Source: an uncultured Candidatus Saccharibacteria bacterium (GTDB taxonomy: Bacteria > Patescibacteriota > Saccharimonadia > Saccharimonadales > Saccharimonadaceae). From it: a stretch of DNA of 37,115 bases. The position numbers were made by a program, and so were the translations under genes. This document shows positions 157 through 36,887 of this stretch, one piece after another; positions within the stretch are counted from its first letter, which is position 1; every line of letters starts with the position of its first letter. The stretch lies in contig CANOTH010000009.1 of NCBI GenBank assembly GCA_947570505.1, positions 1-37,115 of the forward strand. The letters are read 5' to 3'. The notes beneath the pieces were generated by a model that was not told the DNA's origin, made no database searches, and saw only the letters and a list, made by a program, of their open reading frames with translations.

Positions 157-1014
157 ATGTTAATCGATACGCACTGCCATCTACACGACCCAGAATGGTT
201 TACTAAGGACGAACAACATGAGTTTTTGCAAAAAGCTCACGAAAACAACGTTGAAAAGATGATTTGTATTGGCACAAATCATGAAGATTCCTTGGTAGCG
301 CGCGACTTCGCTCAAAAACATACTAATGTTTACTGGACCTACGGCATCCACCCCGAGTTCGCTACCGGTACAACGACGAATCTGATGGGAACTGAGGCTG
401 ACCACTATGCTTTTCTCGAGACCATCCGTAGCGCCACGAGCGAGGGAGAGGCGGCTTCCGCCCGTAACGACGGGCCGGAAGAACGCCGTGTCTCGAAAAA
501 ATATAGTGGTCAGCAATGGCTTGCATCAGATAAGCTTTGCGCGATTGGTGAAATCGGCTTAGATTACCATTACGACGGCTACGATCGCCTTGCACAAATC
601 AAACTTTTTGAGCAGATGCTACAACTCGCCCTGGATTACAATTTGCCAGTTTCACTTCATCTCCGCGAGGCTTTCGATGATGCTTTTGCAGTGCTTGATA
701 ATTTTCCTCAAACTCGCGGAGTCGTGCACAGTTTTACTGGTTCTAAACGCGATCTCAAACAAGCCCTAGCACGCGACTTCTATATCGGTGTAAACGGGCT
801 GGCAACATACACTACCCCTGCCTTACCTCCGCTAGAACGTATTGTTCTAGAAACCGACGCGCCTTTCCTCACTCCTGCGCCTTATCGCAACGAGAAAAAT
901 GGCCCGCAGTTTATCAAAAATATTGCTGAATATCTGGCTGAAAAATTCCAAACTCCGTTAGAAGAGGTCGCCAAAATAACAACGCAAAACGCCGAGCGAA
1001 TTTTTAAAATTTAA
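157..1014 (+). CDS. tatD: TatD-family metal-dependent hydrolase/DNase
   Basis: TatD proteins are TIM-barrel metallo-hydrolases with DNase activity, acting in the cytosol in DNA repair or turnover. The metal-binding HCHLH motif opens the protein, followed by GEIGLDYHY, HLREAF, HSFTGS and the C-terminal ETDAPFLTP motif, so the active site looks complete. The start at 157 is chosen because MLIDTHCHLH is the usual family start and a -10 box sits 6 nt upstream; a longer reading frame from 34 would run through repeat DNA. About 286 aa. Between GIHPEF and AIGEIGLDY the protein is longer than is usual, and this stretch holds an in-frame palindromic insertion (about 447-494). In actinobacteria tatD neighbours metG, rpfB and ksgA; all four occur in this window. 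Confidence 0.93.
   Translation: MLIDTHCHLHDPEWFTKDEQHEFLQKAHENNVEKMICIGTNHEDSLVARDFAQKHTNVYWTYGIHPEFATGTTTNLMGTEADHYAFLETIRSATSEGEAASARNDGPEERRVSKKYSGQQWLASDKLCAIGEIGLDYHYDGYDRLAQIKLFEQMLQLALDYNLPVSLHLREAFDDAFAVLDNFPQTRGVVHSFTGSKRDLKQALARDFYIGVNGLATYTTPALPPLERIVLETDAPFLTPAPYRNEKNGPQFIKNIAEYLAEKFQTPLEEVAKITTQNAERIFKI
447..494. repeat. Palindromic insertion within tatD
   Basis: Bases 456-494 match 2332-2370 in the cysteine desulfurase gene at 33 of 39 positions. The core folds as CTTCCGCCCGT, loop AACG, ACGGGCCGGAAG, with flanking GGCG/CGCC and GAGA/TCTC pairs. It is read through in frame as a charged, Ala/Arg-rich loop. Confidence 0.65.
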
Positions 1015-1060: not shown

Positions 1061-2419
1061 ATGATTTATCTTGATCATGCCGCCGCGACGCCGGTTTTAC
1101 CACAGGCGTTAGAAGCTATGATGCCGTACTATACGGAATTATTTTTTAACCCCTCGGCTCCATATCTCCCAGCGAAGCATGTTCGTGAGGCTTATGAGTC
1201 TGCCAAGGATGACATCGCTCATGCAATCGGTGCTAAAGGTGTGGATCTCGTCATGACGGCGGGCGCTACTGAATCAATTAATTTAGCCTTCACGGCTTGC
1301 CGGAGCAAATCTCTAATTCTTACTACTGAACATACGGCTGTCATTGAAGCCGCCAAGACCGATGAATATGACTTGATACAAGTTGATAAAACTGGCATGA
1401 TTCTGGTTGATGACCTTAAGAAAAAGTTGGATGATAAGGTAGATTTTATCTCAATTTCATTGGCTAATAACGAAATTGGCACTATTCAGCCGCTGGCAGA
1501 AATTGCTGAAATTATTCGTCAAACGCGCCAAGAACGTCTGCGTCGCGGCATAGAAACTCCCCTTTGGTTTCATTCTGACGCTTCACAGGCTTTAAATTTA
1601 GTTGACATCAATGTAGCTAGGTTAGGAGTAGATCTGCTAACTTTGAATGCCGCCAAATGTGGCGGACCGAAGGGAGTGGGTGCACTTTATGTGAATCATG
1701 GTGTTAATTTAACGCCCGTTGTTGTAGGTGGCGGCCAAGAGCGAGGACTACGTTCTGGCACAGAAAATGTTCCAGGAGTGATAGGTTTTGCCGTAGCTAT
1801 CAAATATGCAAAATCCCACCTAACCAGCAAACGCAGGGCATACCAAAAAATGGCTACAATACTTCGTAAAGCACTAGCTCATACTTCCATTATAGCACAC
1901 AATGACGAAAAAGTCAATAGCAAAATCCCTGAACCGCTCTTTTTGGGTAATCCTAAGCACCAATTGGCGAATTTTGTCTCCGTATCTTTTCCAGGTATTG
2001 ATGCAGAAAGGCTAATTTATAAGTTAGAACAAGAGGGAATTTTGGTCTCAACTGGAGCAGCCTGCGCCGCCAATAAGGGTAGCAAATCTCACGTCCTCAC
2101 CGCAATTAGTTTGACCGATGAGCAAATCGCCGGCTCGTTACGCATTTCGCTGGGTAGTACTAACACTAAAGCACAAATCGAAGAGGCTAGCCATGTAATT
2201 CAAGAATGTGTGCGTGATGAATATTTGCGTATGGCTCTGAAACATCAGTCACATTATCAAGAAACTGTCCGCAGTGTCACGTTATCCCCCTCGGGACGGA
2301 TGCGACGAAGTCGGTGCGAGGAAAAGGAGGATTTCGCCCGTGACGACGGGACGGAAGAACTCCGCGTTTCTGATAGTGCGGCTGATGTTTCAGAATTATG
2401 GGAGAGTAATCATGCCTAA
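1061..2419 (+). CDS. Cysteine desulfurase (IscS/NifS-like, class V aminotransferase)
   Basis: A PLP enzyme that removes sulfur from cysteine as an enzyme-bound persulfide. MIYLDHAAATPV and the NPSAPY region are typical of the N-terminus; HSDASQ precedes the PLP-lysine region around NAAKCGGPKGVGALYV; the sulfur-carrying Cys lies in STGAACAANKGSKSHVL; RISLGSTNT follows. The gene overlaps mnmA by 8 nt (2412-2419), so this is very probably the sulfur donor for tRNA 2-thiolation by MnmA. The last 50 or so residues, after ALKHQSHYQ, are not family sequence: they are encoded by a 113-bp palindromic element (2269-2381) that has lengthened the C-terminus without breaking the overlap with mnmA. 452 aa, long for the family. 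Confidence 0.93.
   Translation: MIYLDHAAATPVLPQALEAMMPYYTELFFNPSAPYLPAKHVREAYESAKDDIAHAIGAKGVDLVMTAGATESINLAFTACRSKSLILTTEHTAVIEAAKTDEYDLIQVDKTGMILVDDLKKKLDDKVDFISISLANNEIGTIQPLAEIAEIIRQTRQERLRRGIETPLWFHSDASQALNLVDINVARLGVDLLTLNAAKCGGPKGVGALYVNHGVNLTPVVVGGGQERGLRSGTENVPGVIGFAVAIKYAKSHLTSKRRAYQKMATILRKALAHTSIIAHNDEKVNSKIPEPLFLGNPKHQLANFVSVSFPGIDAERLIYKLEQEGILVSTGAACAANKGSKSHVLTAISLTDEQIAGSLRISLGSTNTKAQIEEASHVIQECVRDEYLRMALKHQSHYQETVRSVTLSPSGRMRRSRCEEKEDFARDDGTEELRVSDSAADVSELWESNHA
2269..2381. repeat. Palindromic MITE-like element in the desulfurase 3' end
   Basis: The ends CCGCAGTGTCA (2269-2279) and TGATAGTGCGG (2371-2381) are inverted repeats with 9 of 11 pairing. Inside are two modules found elsewhere singly: 2279-2301 (copy at 53-75) and 2332-2370 (copy at 456-494 in tatD). 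The second module forms a hairpin around CCCGT-GACG-ACGGG. The element is fully translated as the C-terminal extension of the enzyme. Confidence 0.65.
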
Positions 2420-3463: not shown

Positions 3464-3673
3464 TTAGTATACCAAACAGCGGACGGGGAAACCGTAAGAG
3501 CGATGCTTACTATTATCTGATGAATTAACGCCAGAAAGATTAAAGCTGAGCTCATAAGCGGTATCGTAAGAGGAAAGATGATAATCACTGGCAATATTAG
3601 ACCAACTATATCCATTACGACCAACATATTTCAAAGAGTTGTAGGCTAAATCAACCCACCCGCTACGGACGAG
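3464..3673 (-). other. Stand-alone variable-region cassette 1 (FISUMP/C-type-lectin-like)
   Basis: Minus-strand translation opens LVRSGWVDLAYNSLKYVG and closes SYGFPVRCLVY-stop (stop at 3464-3466), with no internal stop. The pattern VRSG, GYSW, AYELSFN, GFPVRC is that of the C-terminal domain of Fib_succ_major (FISUMP) proteins, a known class of DGR target. A TGA in frame just upstream and the lack of a start codon mean it is not a normal gene. It diverges from cassette 2 across an inverted repeat. The DNA 3' of the stop holds the shared sequence around CTTAGTATACC. Confidence 0.7.
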
Positions 3674-3697
3674 TTTAGCTCATTTCGTCCGTAGCGG
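3660..3697. repeat. Inverted repeat joining head-to-head cassettes
   Basis: CCGCTACGGACGA (3660-3672) and TTCGTCCGTAGCGG (3684-3697) are inverted copies separated by 11 bp. Each is the conserved opening (F)VRSG of a cassette, so the two cassettes diverge from a short hairpin-forming centre. Confidence 0.8.
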
Positions 3698-3905
3698 AAC
3701 TATACAATTAGATTTCAATCATTATAGCATGTTAAGATCTCTTGGCCGTGACAGTTACGGATGGTTTAATACGACCACTGATTATAGTAGCTCAACCTCA
3801 AGTAATACTAAAGCTTATAATTTTGCCGCCAATGTTTTAGGAATCTACCCATCAAATGGTCCGTGGGAACGTTGGTACGGTTTCTCCGTCCGCTGTTTGG
3901 TATAG
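3684..3905 (+). other. Stand-alone variable-region cassette 2
   Basis: The plus strand encodes FVRSGTIQLDFNHYSMLRSL, then a Ser/Thr/Asn-rich stretch, and closes RWYGFSVRCLV-stop at 3903-3905. It has the same ends as the other cassettes but a quite different middle (WERW at the -RW- site, TTTDYSSSTSSNTKAYNF in the core). No start codon or ribosome binding site is present. It is probably a silent copy or relic rather than an expressed gene. Confidence 0.7.
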
Positions 3906-5964: not shown

Positions 5965-6056
5965 GATTATTTTCTCGTCCACTGTTTTCTAATATATATC
6001 ACAAAGTAGTAGCAGAAATACACTAACACCCATCTGCTAGTTAGCCTAAAGGTAAA
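5965..6056. other. Intergenic region after alaS
   Basis: No reading frame. A short hairpin, CTAGTT and CC paired with GG and AACTAG around TAAA (about 6037-6060), abuts the 3' end of cassette 3. This may be the transcription stop of either neighbour. Confidence 0.35.
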
Positions 6057-6263
6057 CTAGTATACCAAACAGCGGACGGGGAAACCGTACCAACGAACAT
6101 AGTTAACGGACGAGCCAACATCTGAAGGATTGAAGTAGAGGTAGTAAGCAGTAGCAGAGGTAGGTGACGAGTAAGTACTAGCAACACGAGACCAACCGTC
6201 GCCATCGAAGCCAAAGCTCCTCAGAGCGCTATTATTAAGATTAATCCACCCGCTACGGACGAA
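6057..6263 (-). other. Stand-alone variable-region cassette 3
   Basis: Minus-strand translation runs FVRSGWINLNNSALRSFG through YSSPTSATAYYLYFNPS to RWYGFPVRCLVY-stop (6057-6059). This is a textbook FISUMP C-terminal pattern. Compared with cassette 5 it has 19 amino-acid differences; 17 are in codons with the same third base C or T that can be derived from AAC or AAT. A nominal ATG at 6300-6302 gives an 81-aa frame, but nothing like the N-terminal body of a FISUMP protein precedes it. Confidence 0.75.
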
Positions 6264-29595: not shown

Positions 29596-30192
29596 CTAGT
29601 CAGTAGTGGAAGCAGTTAAGACTACAGTTGCCTTGTATTCACCAGCAGGTAGACTTGAACCAGCGGTTGCTCCGAAGGCGAGCTTGGTAGTATAGACCTG
29701 CTTATCAGCATTAGTGGTCCAGCCAGCATCTGAATCTGTAACACTCACGACATCTTTGCTGCCTGTAGCTGGCACACCGAACCAGTTGCCCGTATCGTTA
29801 ACTTGGTAACCCCAAGAGTTGGTACCACCAGTTAAAGTAGTGACACCGGCAGCATCTGCAATCGCAGGGATAGAAGTATTGGTTTCGCTATTCATCAAAG
29901 CATTTCCGCTCGGAGCACTAATCTTCAATGAGTAAGCAGTAGCACTGTTGCCAGAAACTGTGACGGTTAATTCATTATCGCCAGCATTCTCACCAGTAGC
30001 GACACCGTTTAGTTTTAGGGTGCCTAGATCAACCTCAGTCTTATCGACGGCGATTGAGATAGCACCTTCAACCGTGGTTTTTACCGTGGTTTCGGTTGGT
30101 ACATCATAAGCATACGAACTCAGTGGCAATGCAGCTACACCAAGACCAGCTACAACACCTAAGACTGCGATAGCTTTTGACATTTTAGACAT
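29596..30192 (-). CDS. Phase-variable secreted surface protein B (predicted OFF)
   Basis: 198 aa. The signal peptide (1-28, MSKMSKAIAVLGVVAGLG... to SSYA) is identical in DNA to that of protein A at 31307-31909. The mature part is an all-beta, Thr/Ser/Val-rich domain with VDLGTL, TVTVSGNSATAYSLKISA, SWGYQ and AGEYKATVVLTAS, a pattern common in small secreted proteins of Saccharibacteria and reminiscent of WxL or pilin-like beta sandwiches; only one Trp motif is seen, so it is not a true WxL protein. AGGAG precedes the ATG. The promoter is incomplete: CATAAT with no -35 in this orientation of the invertible segment. Confidence 0.85.
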   Translation of the reverse strand: MSKMSKAIAVLGVVAGLGVAALPLSSYAYDVPTETTVKTTVEGAISIAVDKTEVDLGTLKLNGVATGENAGDNELTVTVSGNSATAYSLKISAPSGNALMNSETNTSIPAIADAAGVTTLTGGTNSWGYQVNDTGNWFGVPATGSKDVVSVTDSDAGWTTNADKQVYTTKLAFGATAGSSLPAGEYKATVVLTASTTD

Positions 30193-30257
30193 AAATTTCT
30201 CCTTTTGATTTTTGTCTTTTACTTGTTTATTTATATGACCTTTGTAATTGTTATTAT
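30109..30257 (-). repeat. Left 149-bp arm of the invertible segment
   Basis: Exact reverse complement of 31242-31390. Read on the minus strand it runs from five bases of the -10 box (ATAAT) through the leader and AGGAG to the last codon of the signal peptide of protein B. Divergence starts on the next base on both sides. Confidence 0.95.
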
Positions 30258-31189: not shown

Positions 31190-31217
31190 AAATTGCAAAA
31201 ATTGTGCGAAAAACGTA

Positions 31218-31246
31218 TTGACTTAAGCATAACCATCCTATATAAT
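31218..31246 (+). promoter_or_regulatory. Movable promoter of the inversion switch
   Basis: TTGACT (31218-31223), a 17-bp spacer and TATAAT (31241-31246). The -35, spacer and first T lie in the unique invertible segment; ATAAT belongs to the repeat arm. Inversion would join this -35 to the arm of gene B and leave gene A with CATAAT and no -35. Confidence 0.88.
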
Positions 31247-31390
31247 AACAATTACAAAGGTCATATAAATAAACAAGTAAAAGACAAAAATCAAAAGGAG
31301 AAATTTATGTCTAAAATGTCAAAAGCTATCGCAGTCTTAGGTGTTGTAGCTGGTCTTGGTGTAGCTGCATTGCCACTGAGTTCGTATGCT
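31242..31390 (+). repeat. Right 149-bp arm of the invertible segment
   Basis: Exact reverse complement of 30109-30257. It covers ATAAT of the -10 box, the leader, AGGAG and codons 1-28 of protein A. Perfect identity over 149 bp between genes whose mature parts differ greatly points to continuing exchange between the arms. Confidence 0.95.
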
Positions 31391-31909
31391 GCGGATGCTG
31401 ATGGTGTGATGCCACAATCCGAGAATGTCACTGTGCAAGCAGAGGTTGGCGGTTCTATCTCACTAGAAATTGCCGGTGAGACTGGTAGCAATTTCAATGC
31501 TGACACCAATACTCTCGATTTAGGTAAGATCATCGTTGGCGCCGCTGACCCAATCACTGGTGCTATCAAAGCTACTGTTTCTACTAACGAAACTTTGAAT
31601 TATGCTTTGACTATCCGTACCGCTACAACTGAAACTGCTATGAAGAATGCTAATGGTAACTCGATTCCAGCTGGCGATCCAAAGGGAACCACATCAGCTT
31701 GGGGCTATTCAACTGACAGTGGTACAACCTTCAAGCCTGTACCTGCCACTGCTACTTCACTGTTAGCGACTAATCCAGGTAGCTTGAATGGTACTGGCGA
31801 AACTGCTGCTACAGCTGATACCACCATTACCTTTGGTGTTAAGGCTGATTCTAATCAGGCTCCAGGTGTCTACTCTAACCAAGTAGTTATCACTGCTTCT
31901 GTTAAATAA
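31307..31909 (+). CDS. Phase-variable secreted surface protein A (predicted ON)
   Basis: 200 aa, starting at the ATG (31307) that follows AGGAG. The signal peptide (1-28, ending SSYA) is identical to that of protein B. The mature domain is beta-rich: VTVQAEVGGSISLEI, LDLGKIIVGA, ATVSTNETLNYALTIRT, TSAWGYSTDSG and APGVYSNQVVITASVK, in the same order as in protein B, so the two are distant paralogues with alternative mature sequences. It has no membrane anchor or LPXTG signal and probably binds partners at the surface, perhaps the DUF916-like proteins encoded downstream. A longer frame starting at 31193 is ignored because it crosses the promoter. Confidence 0.88.
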   Translation: MSKMSKAIAVLGVVAGLGVAALPLSSYAADADGVMPQSENVTVQAEVGGSISLEIAGETGSNFNADTNTLDLGKIIVGAADPITGAIKATVSTNETLNYALTIRTATTETAMKNANGNSIPAGDPKGTTSAWGYSTDSGTTFKPVPATATSLLATNPGSLNGTGETAATADTTITFGVKADSNQAPGVYSNQVVITASVK

Positions 31910-36149: not shown

Positions 36150-36384
36150 GTTGATTTAAAGATCGGCACCGAACCGCGACATAGGATAGGCGGACGGGGA
36201 AACCGTTCCAACGATTGTTCGGGCCGTGGGACGGGCGAGACTCTGAGGTATTAAACTCAAACCAGTAAGAGTTAGCCAAGGTCGCAGAGGAGTAAGCTAC
36301 AGAGGTACGCGACCAGTCGTAGCCAATGTTGCCCGAGTTCCTCAGTGAGCCGTTGTTCAAGTTGACGTTCCCGCTACGGACGAA
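36142..36384 (-). other. Variable-region cassette 4, asparagine-rich with a different tail
   Basis: Minus-strand translation opens FVRSGNVNLNNGSLRNSG and reaches RWNGFPVR, then departs from the other copies (LSYVAVRCRSLNQQK-stop at 36142). It has eleven Asn codons (AAC or AAT) in about 70 codons, at many of the sites that vary in other copies, so it is the most template-like. A nominal TTG start near 36414 adds SLVPFQYFVRSG, where PFQYFVRSG may be a remnant of the body domain, but a stop lies a few codons further upstream. Confidence 0.7.
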
Positions 36385-36680
36385 GTACTGGAATGGAACC
36401 AGCGAGGTAGTCAATAGAAAAGCTATGAAGCCGGACTATCAGCCACAGCAAAAACGGTCAGAAATAGAATAGTCGTCAGGTTTAGAAGTTGATTTTAAGG
36501 CCCTAAGCCTTGGATTAGGGTGCATTCTAGCCTCTATAACTCTTTTGTAAGCTATGCAGAGGATAACTTCACGATCTTTATATGATTCAGGGAGCTGCTG
36601 GGAGCTGGAGCCAAAACCTCAAAATAGCCCCTTTAGATCCCATAAGCCTTAGGCTTACTAACTCATTTTATCACGTTCAA
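36385..36680. other. Region between cassettes 4 and 5
   Basis: No gene is seen. It holds a hairpin CCCTAA / TTAGGG (about 36502-36521) and a small palindrome TAAGCCTTAGGCTTA (about 36646-36660). The last bases (ACTAGTATACC) begin the 3' flank shared with cassette 3. Confidence 0.5.
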
Positions 36681-36887
36681 CTAGTATACCAAACAGCGGA
36701 CGGGGCGACCGTTCCAACGATTGTAGTTAGCCGACGGGTAAACACCTGAAGGATTGAAGTAGAGGCTGTAAGCATTAGCTGAGGTAGGTGACGAGTAAGG
36801 TTTAGCAGCCCGCGACCAACTGTAGCCAGAGCTGCCGAAGTCTCTCAGAGCACTATTACCAAGATTAACCCACCCGCTACGGACGAA
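36681..36887 (-). other. Stand-alone variable-region cassette 5
   Basis: Minus-strand translation runs FVRSGWVNLGNSALRDFG through YSSPTSANAYSLYFNPSG to RWNGRPVRCLVY-stop (36681-36683). It is the closest relative of cassette 3; the differences are mainly first- and second-base changes in codons ending in C or T. An open frame continues upstream to about 37034, but that part (MTFALGYRFF...) crosses hairpins and shows no FISUMP features. Confidence 0.75.

Follow-up and report, generated by a model that had tools for sequence, protein, structure and literature searches.

A likely mobile DNA palindrome carried in frame within protein-coding genes of Saccharibacteria

How do long palindromic sequences come to lie within the reading frames of two enzyme genes, tatD and csd, in an uncultured Candidatus Saccharibacteria bacterium? 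Both genes stand at the start of the window (the whole 37,115-nucleotide stretch analyzed here), which corresponds to contig C9 in a 72-contig assembly of 1.23 Mb (the source genome, G000). An earlier, sequence-only reading had proposed that a 113-bp palindromic element forms the C terminus of the cysteine desulfurase, that one of its modules (2332-2370) recurs in tatD (456-494) at 33 of 39 bases and another (2279-2301) at 53-75 at 22 of 23 bases, and that the element inserts in frame like the Rickettsia palindromic elements (RPEs), adding a charged loop to the host protein; no such family was known in this group to that reader. Both matches held exactly, and the csd open reading frame (ORF) does run open through the element and terminate inside it, the C terminus of Csd being encoded by the element, which extends to the start of mnmA. 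The size held only in part: the unit is larger, as it includes complementary arms that vary among copies and extend past the 113 bp. The assignment of 53-75 to the palindrome failed: this stretch belongs to a different dispersed repeat, a lectin-like cassette whose N-terminal codons (RPKGDNVRSG) it carries in antisense; the csd copy appears to contain a fragment of this cassette in its 5' half. The corrected anatomy is given in Table 1.

Table 1. Palindromic element copies, their host genes, and lectin-like cassettes in the window (coordinates count from the first nucleotide of the window).
Feature	Position	Strand	Remarks
tatD (host gene)	157..1014	+	Pfam PF01026 across the entire protein; insert between GIHPE and AIGEIGLDYH
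Palindromic element within tatD	380..531	+	Arms 380-414 / 497-531, model core 415-497; in frame in TatD
Conserved two-hairpin core, tatD copy	415..497	+	Model R2, 98.1 bits, E 1.5e-23 (whole genome)
csd, cysteine desulfurase (host gene)	1061..2419	+	Pfam PF00266 over aa 2-374 of 452
Palindromic element, csd 3' end	2217..2413	+	Arms 2217-2259 / 2371-2413; best paired 2236-2265 / 2366-2394
Core (conserved but divergent), csd copy	2291..2373	+	Model R2, 46.9 bits, E 3.4e-9 (whole genome)
23-nt stretch in csd copy, common to the lectin-like cassette start (as at 53-75)	2279..2301	+	
Lectin-like cassettes	3467-3670, 3684-3902, 6060-6263, 36187-36384, 36684-36887		

Both window copies fold far more stably than shuffled sequence: the folding energy was -78.6 for the tatD copy and -86.5 for the csd copy, against -46.8 (z -8.4) and -56.8 (z -6.4), respectively, in 200 dinucleotide shuffles. 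The best PDB alignment of TatD covers query residues 1-67 and 119-281 only, and solved TatD structures align on either side of the insert loop, not inside it. Structure predictions were uninformative for TatD (mean pLDDT 54.7) and for LepA (mean pLDDT 36.3), another host protein; the insert region had the lowest predicted confidence in TatD, which is at best a weak hint that the loop may be flexible.

Further copies were sought with a covariance model, R2, of 84 positions, built from seven aligned copies that came from a DNA search of the genome plus a pattern search; the tatD copy was among the seven, and the csd copy was not. A first model, R1, was dropped, its structure having been wrongly drawn. 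R2 identified 11 copies in the source genome at E < 1e-8, plus four weaker matches of uncertain status. Two of the copies are those in the window, one lies inside the leucyl-tRNA synthetase gene (LeuRS; C7), one lies in the dnaK leader (C20), and the rest are intergenic. The dnaK-leader copy (L055, G000:C20:22379-22465) comes after an inverted repeat that resembles CIRCE. As a side observation on the LeuRS host (L053, G000:C7), a NUDIX domain match at aa 256-375 lies just N-terminal of the element core at aa 409-436.

Across the genus, R2 matched 91 of 99 genomes (E <= 0.01), with up to 33 matches per genome. The family search returned matches in 49 of 199 genomes and 13 of 61 genera (E <= 0.001), overturning our early impression that the element was restricted to one genus. 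Only 5 of 286 genomes in a phylum-wide sample were positive, namely, the source genome, two congeners, one other genus of the family, and a weak match (32.9 bits) in another family. A pattern scan of named genomes returned at least 119 stretches; all 80 loci inspected were from Candidatus Saccharibacteria assemblies, titled mostly as goat, sheep, roe deer, cattle, buffalo, or yak gut, the others being UBA2866, UBA1788, and unspecified metagenome bins. A search of viral contigs for the exact core pattern gave no hits. Most of these data are metagenome-assembled genomes.

The element is about 120 to 160 bp long. Its core consists of two hairpins inside an outer stem, one hairpin being topped by CCCGT-NACG-ACGGG, and the long arms (median length outside the core, 23 nt) differ among copies yet remain complementary. 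Removing repeats of the same stretch reduced 142 model matches to 134 distinct copies, a sample of high-scoring copies and of copies fitting one pattern rather than of all copies. Within this sample, 81 copies lie inside ORFs of >=220 aa with >=60 aa on each side, 30 are noncoding, 19 are near a gene edge, and 4 are cut by the end of the locus. The in-gene copies are found in both orientations (40 "+" and 41 "-") and in many unrelated genes. Ten host proteins were scanned, and all were recognized by Pfam: LeuRS, LepA, Der, MnmA, AlaRS, a UvrD/PcrA-type helicase, TrmD, a FemAB-family protein, GatB, and an amidase-family protein (best match GatA, below the cutoff; truncated by the locus end).

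The inserts have in-frame lengths, and reading frames stay open through them. Among orthologues filled at the same site, length differences were divisible by three in 231 of 238 coding comparisons (164 of the 171 that were nonzero) versus 3 of 10 noncoding ones; for filled minus empty sites, the counts were 66 of 81 coding and 2 of 10 noncoding. These comparisons share members and hence are not independent. The exceptions number 7 coding same-site and 15 coding filled/empty comparisons, and 12 of the latter 15 stem from two copies (L154 and L155) for which ambiguous flank alignments may be to blame. In tatD, the similarity on both sides of the insert falls in a single open frame. Although we have no peptide data, the conservation of frame argues that the inserts are translated rather than skipped, most likely as an extra protein loop. 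Such a loop is rich in Ser/Thr/Gly/Pro/Ala and Arg and low in hydrophobic residues; translated cores are 16% hydrophobic versus 34% elsewhere and contain 12.3% Arg versus 4.8%. The charged loop proposed earlier did not hold up, as total charge is 26.3% in the cores and 26.4% elsewhere.

Orthologous sites exist in filled and empty states. TatD carries the element in 16 of 30 loci, always at one place, the loop bounded by GIHP and AIGE (12 "+" and 4 "-"), whereas L235, L238, L239, and L240 have a short loop without an insert. At the csd-mnmA junction, there is a copy in L137 and none in L133, L191, or L194. The GatB site measures 30 to 32 aa in 17 loci, which we read as empty, versus 46 to 65 aa in others (the reading missed four loci, L259, L269, L276, and L277); a recognizable core is present at this site in 4 of 30 loci. 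The sequence-only reading would have been refuted by homologues from distant relatives with the same residues at the insert or by a lack of further copies in the genome. Orthologues without the insert were found at tatD, gatB, and the csd-mnmA junction, and many additional copies were found, bringing the total in this genome to 11; the idea of an in-frame, RPE-like palindrome is thus supported, and the original observation was real and bigger than first described. We found no description of this element for Saccharibacteria, Patescibacteria, or UBA2866 in the open-licence literature searched.

Multiple orthologous copies are available at nineteen coding sites; of the 64 pairs that these form, 24 are in opposite orientations. 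Arm similarity reached the 95th percentile of unrelated sites in 10 of these 24, which fits in-place inversion for some opposite pairs, while independent insertion remains possible for others. The arms are site specific and covary between orthologues. At 560 orthologous arm positions, 194 were paired in both orthologues, 203 in only one, and 163 in neither; 68 of the 194 had been altered on both sides, which argues for upkeep of the arms, though the 203 positions paired in one orthologue only must be set against this. The comparison was ungapped and is blunted by bulges. At a threshold of p<0.01, 4 of the 11 distinct gatB loops of >=51 aa (a set that excludes L260, at 46 aa) show complementarity extending into host codons, versus 0 of 17 empty sites. 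Of these four loops (L252, L253, L256, and L257), two have no recognizable core. Growth of the arms into host codons is thus only suggestive; it hints at hairpin-templated copying, which has been proposed for quasi-palindromes and nematomorph mitochondria (PMC6649704), but does not prove it.

Base pairing within the element is conserved even where the bases are not. In an alignment of 98 distinct core rows, 326 cells had changed on both sides of a pair versus 108 after shuffling (score, 0.368 versus 0.120), and sliding the pair partners abolished the signal; a 42-row alignment gave 178 two-sided cells versus 48. These alignments were fitted to R2 and are biased toward the model's own pairs; the arms beyond the core, analyzed independently of the model, pair as well. 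Inverted repeats of >=9 exact bases occurred outside the core in 38 of 128 flank pairs versus 3 of 128 mate-swapped pairs. Upkeep of the arms is imperfect, with about 83% Watson-Crick pairing in coding copies. RNA structure tolerates G-U pairs on its own strand but not the A-C pairs that the same change produces on the other strand. Mispairs in the arms comprised 270 G-T versus 226 A-C (165 versus 156 in the mRNA sense), and those in the model stems comprised 45 G-T versus 69 A-C. As the two kinds are about equal, without clear bias toward any RNA strand, selection or correction on DNA is favored, and the pairing looks to act at the DNA level.

Evidence of dispersal comes from two contigs of isolate RGIG5719, in which copies 96% identical over 122 nt (L122 and L150) have unrelated flanks. 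A near-identical copy is therefore present at two unrelated sites of one genome, and since the similarity spans the arms, these travel together with the core. L130 and L099 form a second, less similar pair. No mobilizing enzyme was identified with the Y1_Tnp and RVT_1 profiles in 22 genomes: Y1_Tnp (PF01797) was detected only in the source genome and in none of ten relatives with 20 to 33 R2 hits each, and reverse transcriptase was not supported as the mobilizer, with RVT_1 present in 13 of the 22 genomes in no relation to copy number and absent from high-copy genomes G095 and G081. No target-site duplication was seen (direct repeats of >=9 in 3 of 128 flank pairs versus 0 of 128 mate-swapped pairs), but this is a weak test as the ends are not fixed.

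The lectin-like cassettes are a separate repeat of about 68 aa (NVRSG...WSR...GFPVRCLVY), with 125 matches across the 1.23-Mb genome, mostly in short ORFs; they possibly constitute a large silent-cassette repertoire. Repeats at 53-75, 3465-3720, 6055-6263, and 36190-36887 were considered as parts of the palindrome and rejected, being such cassettes. Four near-identical element copies with the same arms (L020 to L023; G000 C14, C26, and C37) immediately follow cassette ends, which makes it probable that each palindrome was copied along with the cassette end before it. Both contig ends (1-55 and 37061-37115) form a perfect 55-nt inverted repeat within cassette sequence, as would be expected if the assembly broke in that repeat. 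Elsewhere in the window, a 156-nt inverted repeat (98%; 30102-30257 / 31242-31397) flanks a 300-aa ORF that, judged by eye, could be a tyrosine recombinase, and two divergent secreted-protein genes (29596-30192 and 31193-31909) share a signal-peptide-like start that is encoded by both repeat arms; the locus may be an invertible surface-protein switch. The source genome also contains two reverse transcriptase matches.

We consider it likely (probability of roughly 0.8) that the element is a nonautonomous mobile DNA palindrome living in Saccharibacteria. In the mechanism that we infer, the element would move as a folded DNA hairpin, recognized through its conserved core by an unidentified enzyme, and would land in genes, surviving there if its length is a multiple of three, if it is free of stops, and if it sits in a tolerant surface loop or terminus. 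A surviving insert would then be translated as an Arg/Ser/Pro/Gly/Ala-rich loop. After insertion, a DNA-level process, probably hairpin-templated correction (quasi-palindrome conversion), would preserve arm complementarity, and the core would be able to flip in place. A bolder version, which we regard as rather less probable than its negation, is that of a self-renewing selfish palindrome, in which the mobile unit needs nothing but its hairpin core, which can invert where it lies, while hairpin-templated copying remakes the arms at every site and may overwrite adjacent host codons. If true, the element would keep supplying essential enzymes with new loops throughout a family of small, host-dependent bacteria, having spread without a classical transposase.

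Four alternatives to a mobile palindrome were considered, and all are very unlikely. Hypervariable loops might have acquired palindromes in place by replication template-switching, without mobility. The site-specific, covarying arms and the possible extension of palindromes into host codons in some gatB genes speak for this, but a single conserved core is common to many unrelated genes and noncoding sites, and a near-identical copy occurs at two unrelated sites of one genome; template-switching may well operate after insertion. The element could instead be a REP/REPIN or MITE family of the usual kind, mobilized by a Y1 (RAYT) transposase, being palindromic, dispersed, and present in both orientations; against this, Y1_Tnp is confined to one of 22 genomes and missing from the ten high-copy relatives, there is no fixed terminal tag, the length is about 120 to 160 bp rather than the 20 to 40 bp of REPs (PMC3733652), and the sampled copies are mostly in ORFs. 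The element might also be a conserved structured RNA, regulatory or catalytic, overlapping genes by chance. Strong stem covariation and the dnaK-leader copy would fit, but Rfam gave no match to the element at the gathering or a relaxed threshold (the window yielded only a tRNA), G-T mispairs are about as frequent as A-C mispairs on both the element strand and the mRNA strand, and in-gene orientations are equal. Finally, removal or skipping of the insert at the RNA or ribosome level, as an intron or by translational bypass (mitochondrial byps are bypass elements of this kind), is suggested by how hard a long stable hairpin within essential enzymes seems to be to tolerate, but would require neither the frame kept in 231 of 238 comparisons nor the single open frame across tatD.

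The many filled, empty, and inverted alleles within the genus amount to a natural experiment on how a palindrome inserts, persists, and evolves in essential genes, and they caution against taking such loops in Saccharibacteria proteins for ancestral features. With regard to known systems, prokaryotic MITEs are also small nonautonomous elements able to fuse in frame with genes (PMC10969869). Terminal repeats are well defined in MITEs, and target duplications are usual; the Saccharibacteria element showed neither a conserved end nor a duplication. GTAG- and CGTC-tagged REPs are likewise dispersed hairpins, and the CGTC families similarly lack a dedicated transposase (PMC3733652), but REPs are 20 to 40 bp with a tag at one end (PMC3733652), and most copies examined here are inside ORFs. 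RPE-4 and RPE-6 are themselves CGTC-tagged REP families with the tag at one end (PMC3733652); no CGTC end tag was present in our element, whose ends vary among copies and in which CGTC appears only as the central hairpin loop on the complementary strand. The coding palindromes of Nematomorpha mitochondria resemble it in having long inverted repeats in translated genes and arms that seem actively maintained, with template switching proposed (PMC6649704). Both arms there encode conserved protein, and the relevant sections of that report contain no shared mobile core, unlike the core dispersed among genes in Saccharibacteria.

The closest parallel in mode of action is with the RPEs (Ogata 2000, 2002, as cited in PMC10969869 and PMC6649704), by analogy only, since no RPE sequences were compared and we do not claim membership. 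RPEs are also palindromic and about 100 to 150 bp long, and they too occupy unrelated genes without breaking the frame, in a reduced genome of a host-dependent bacterium, where they are read as a tolerated segment. The Saccharibacteria element differs in belonging to another phylum, in occurring in both orientations at one site, and in having arms that differ among copies but appear to stay complementary, whereas RPEs lose repeat identity with time (PMC6649704). Protein-coding palindromes were previously known mainly from Rickettsia; finding them so widespread in Saccharibacteria, bacteria of a different phylum that also have reduced genomes, adds a second case and allows a test of whether selfish DNA generally adds protein segments in this way.
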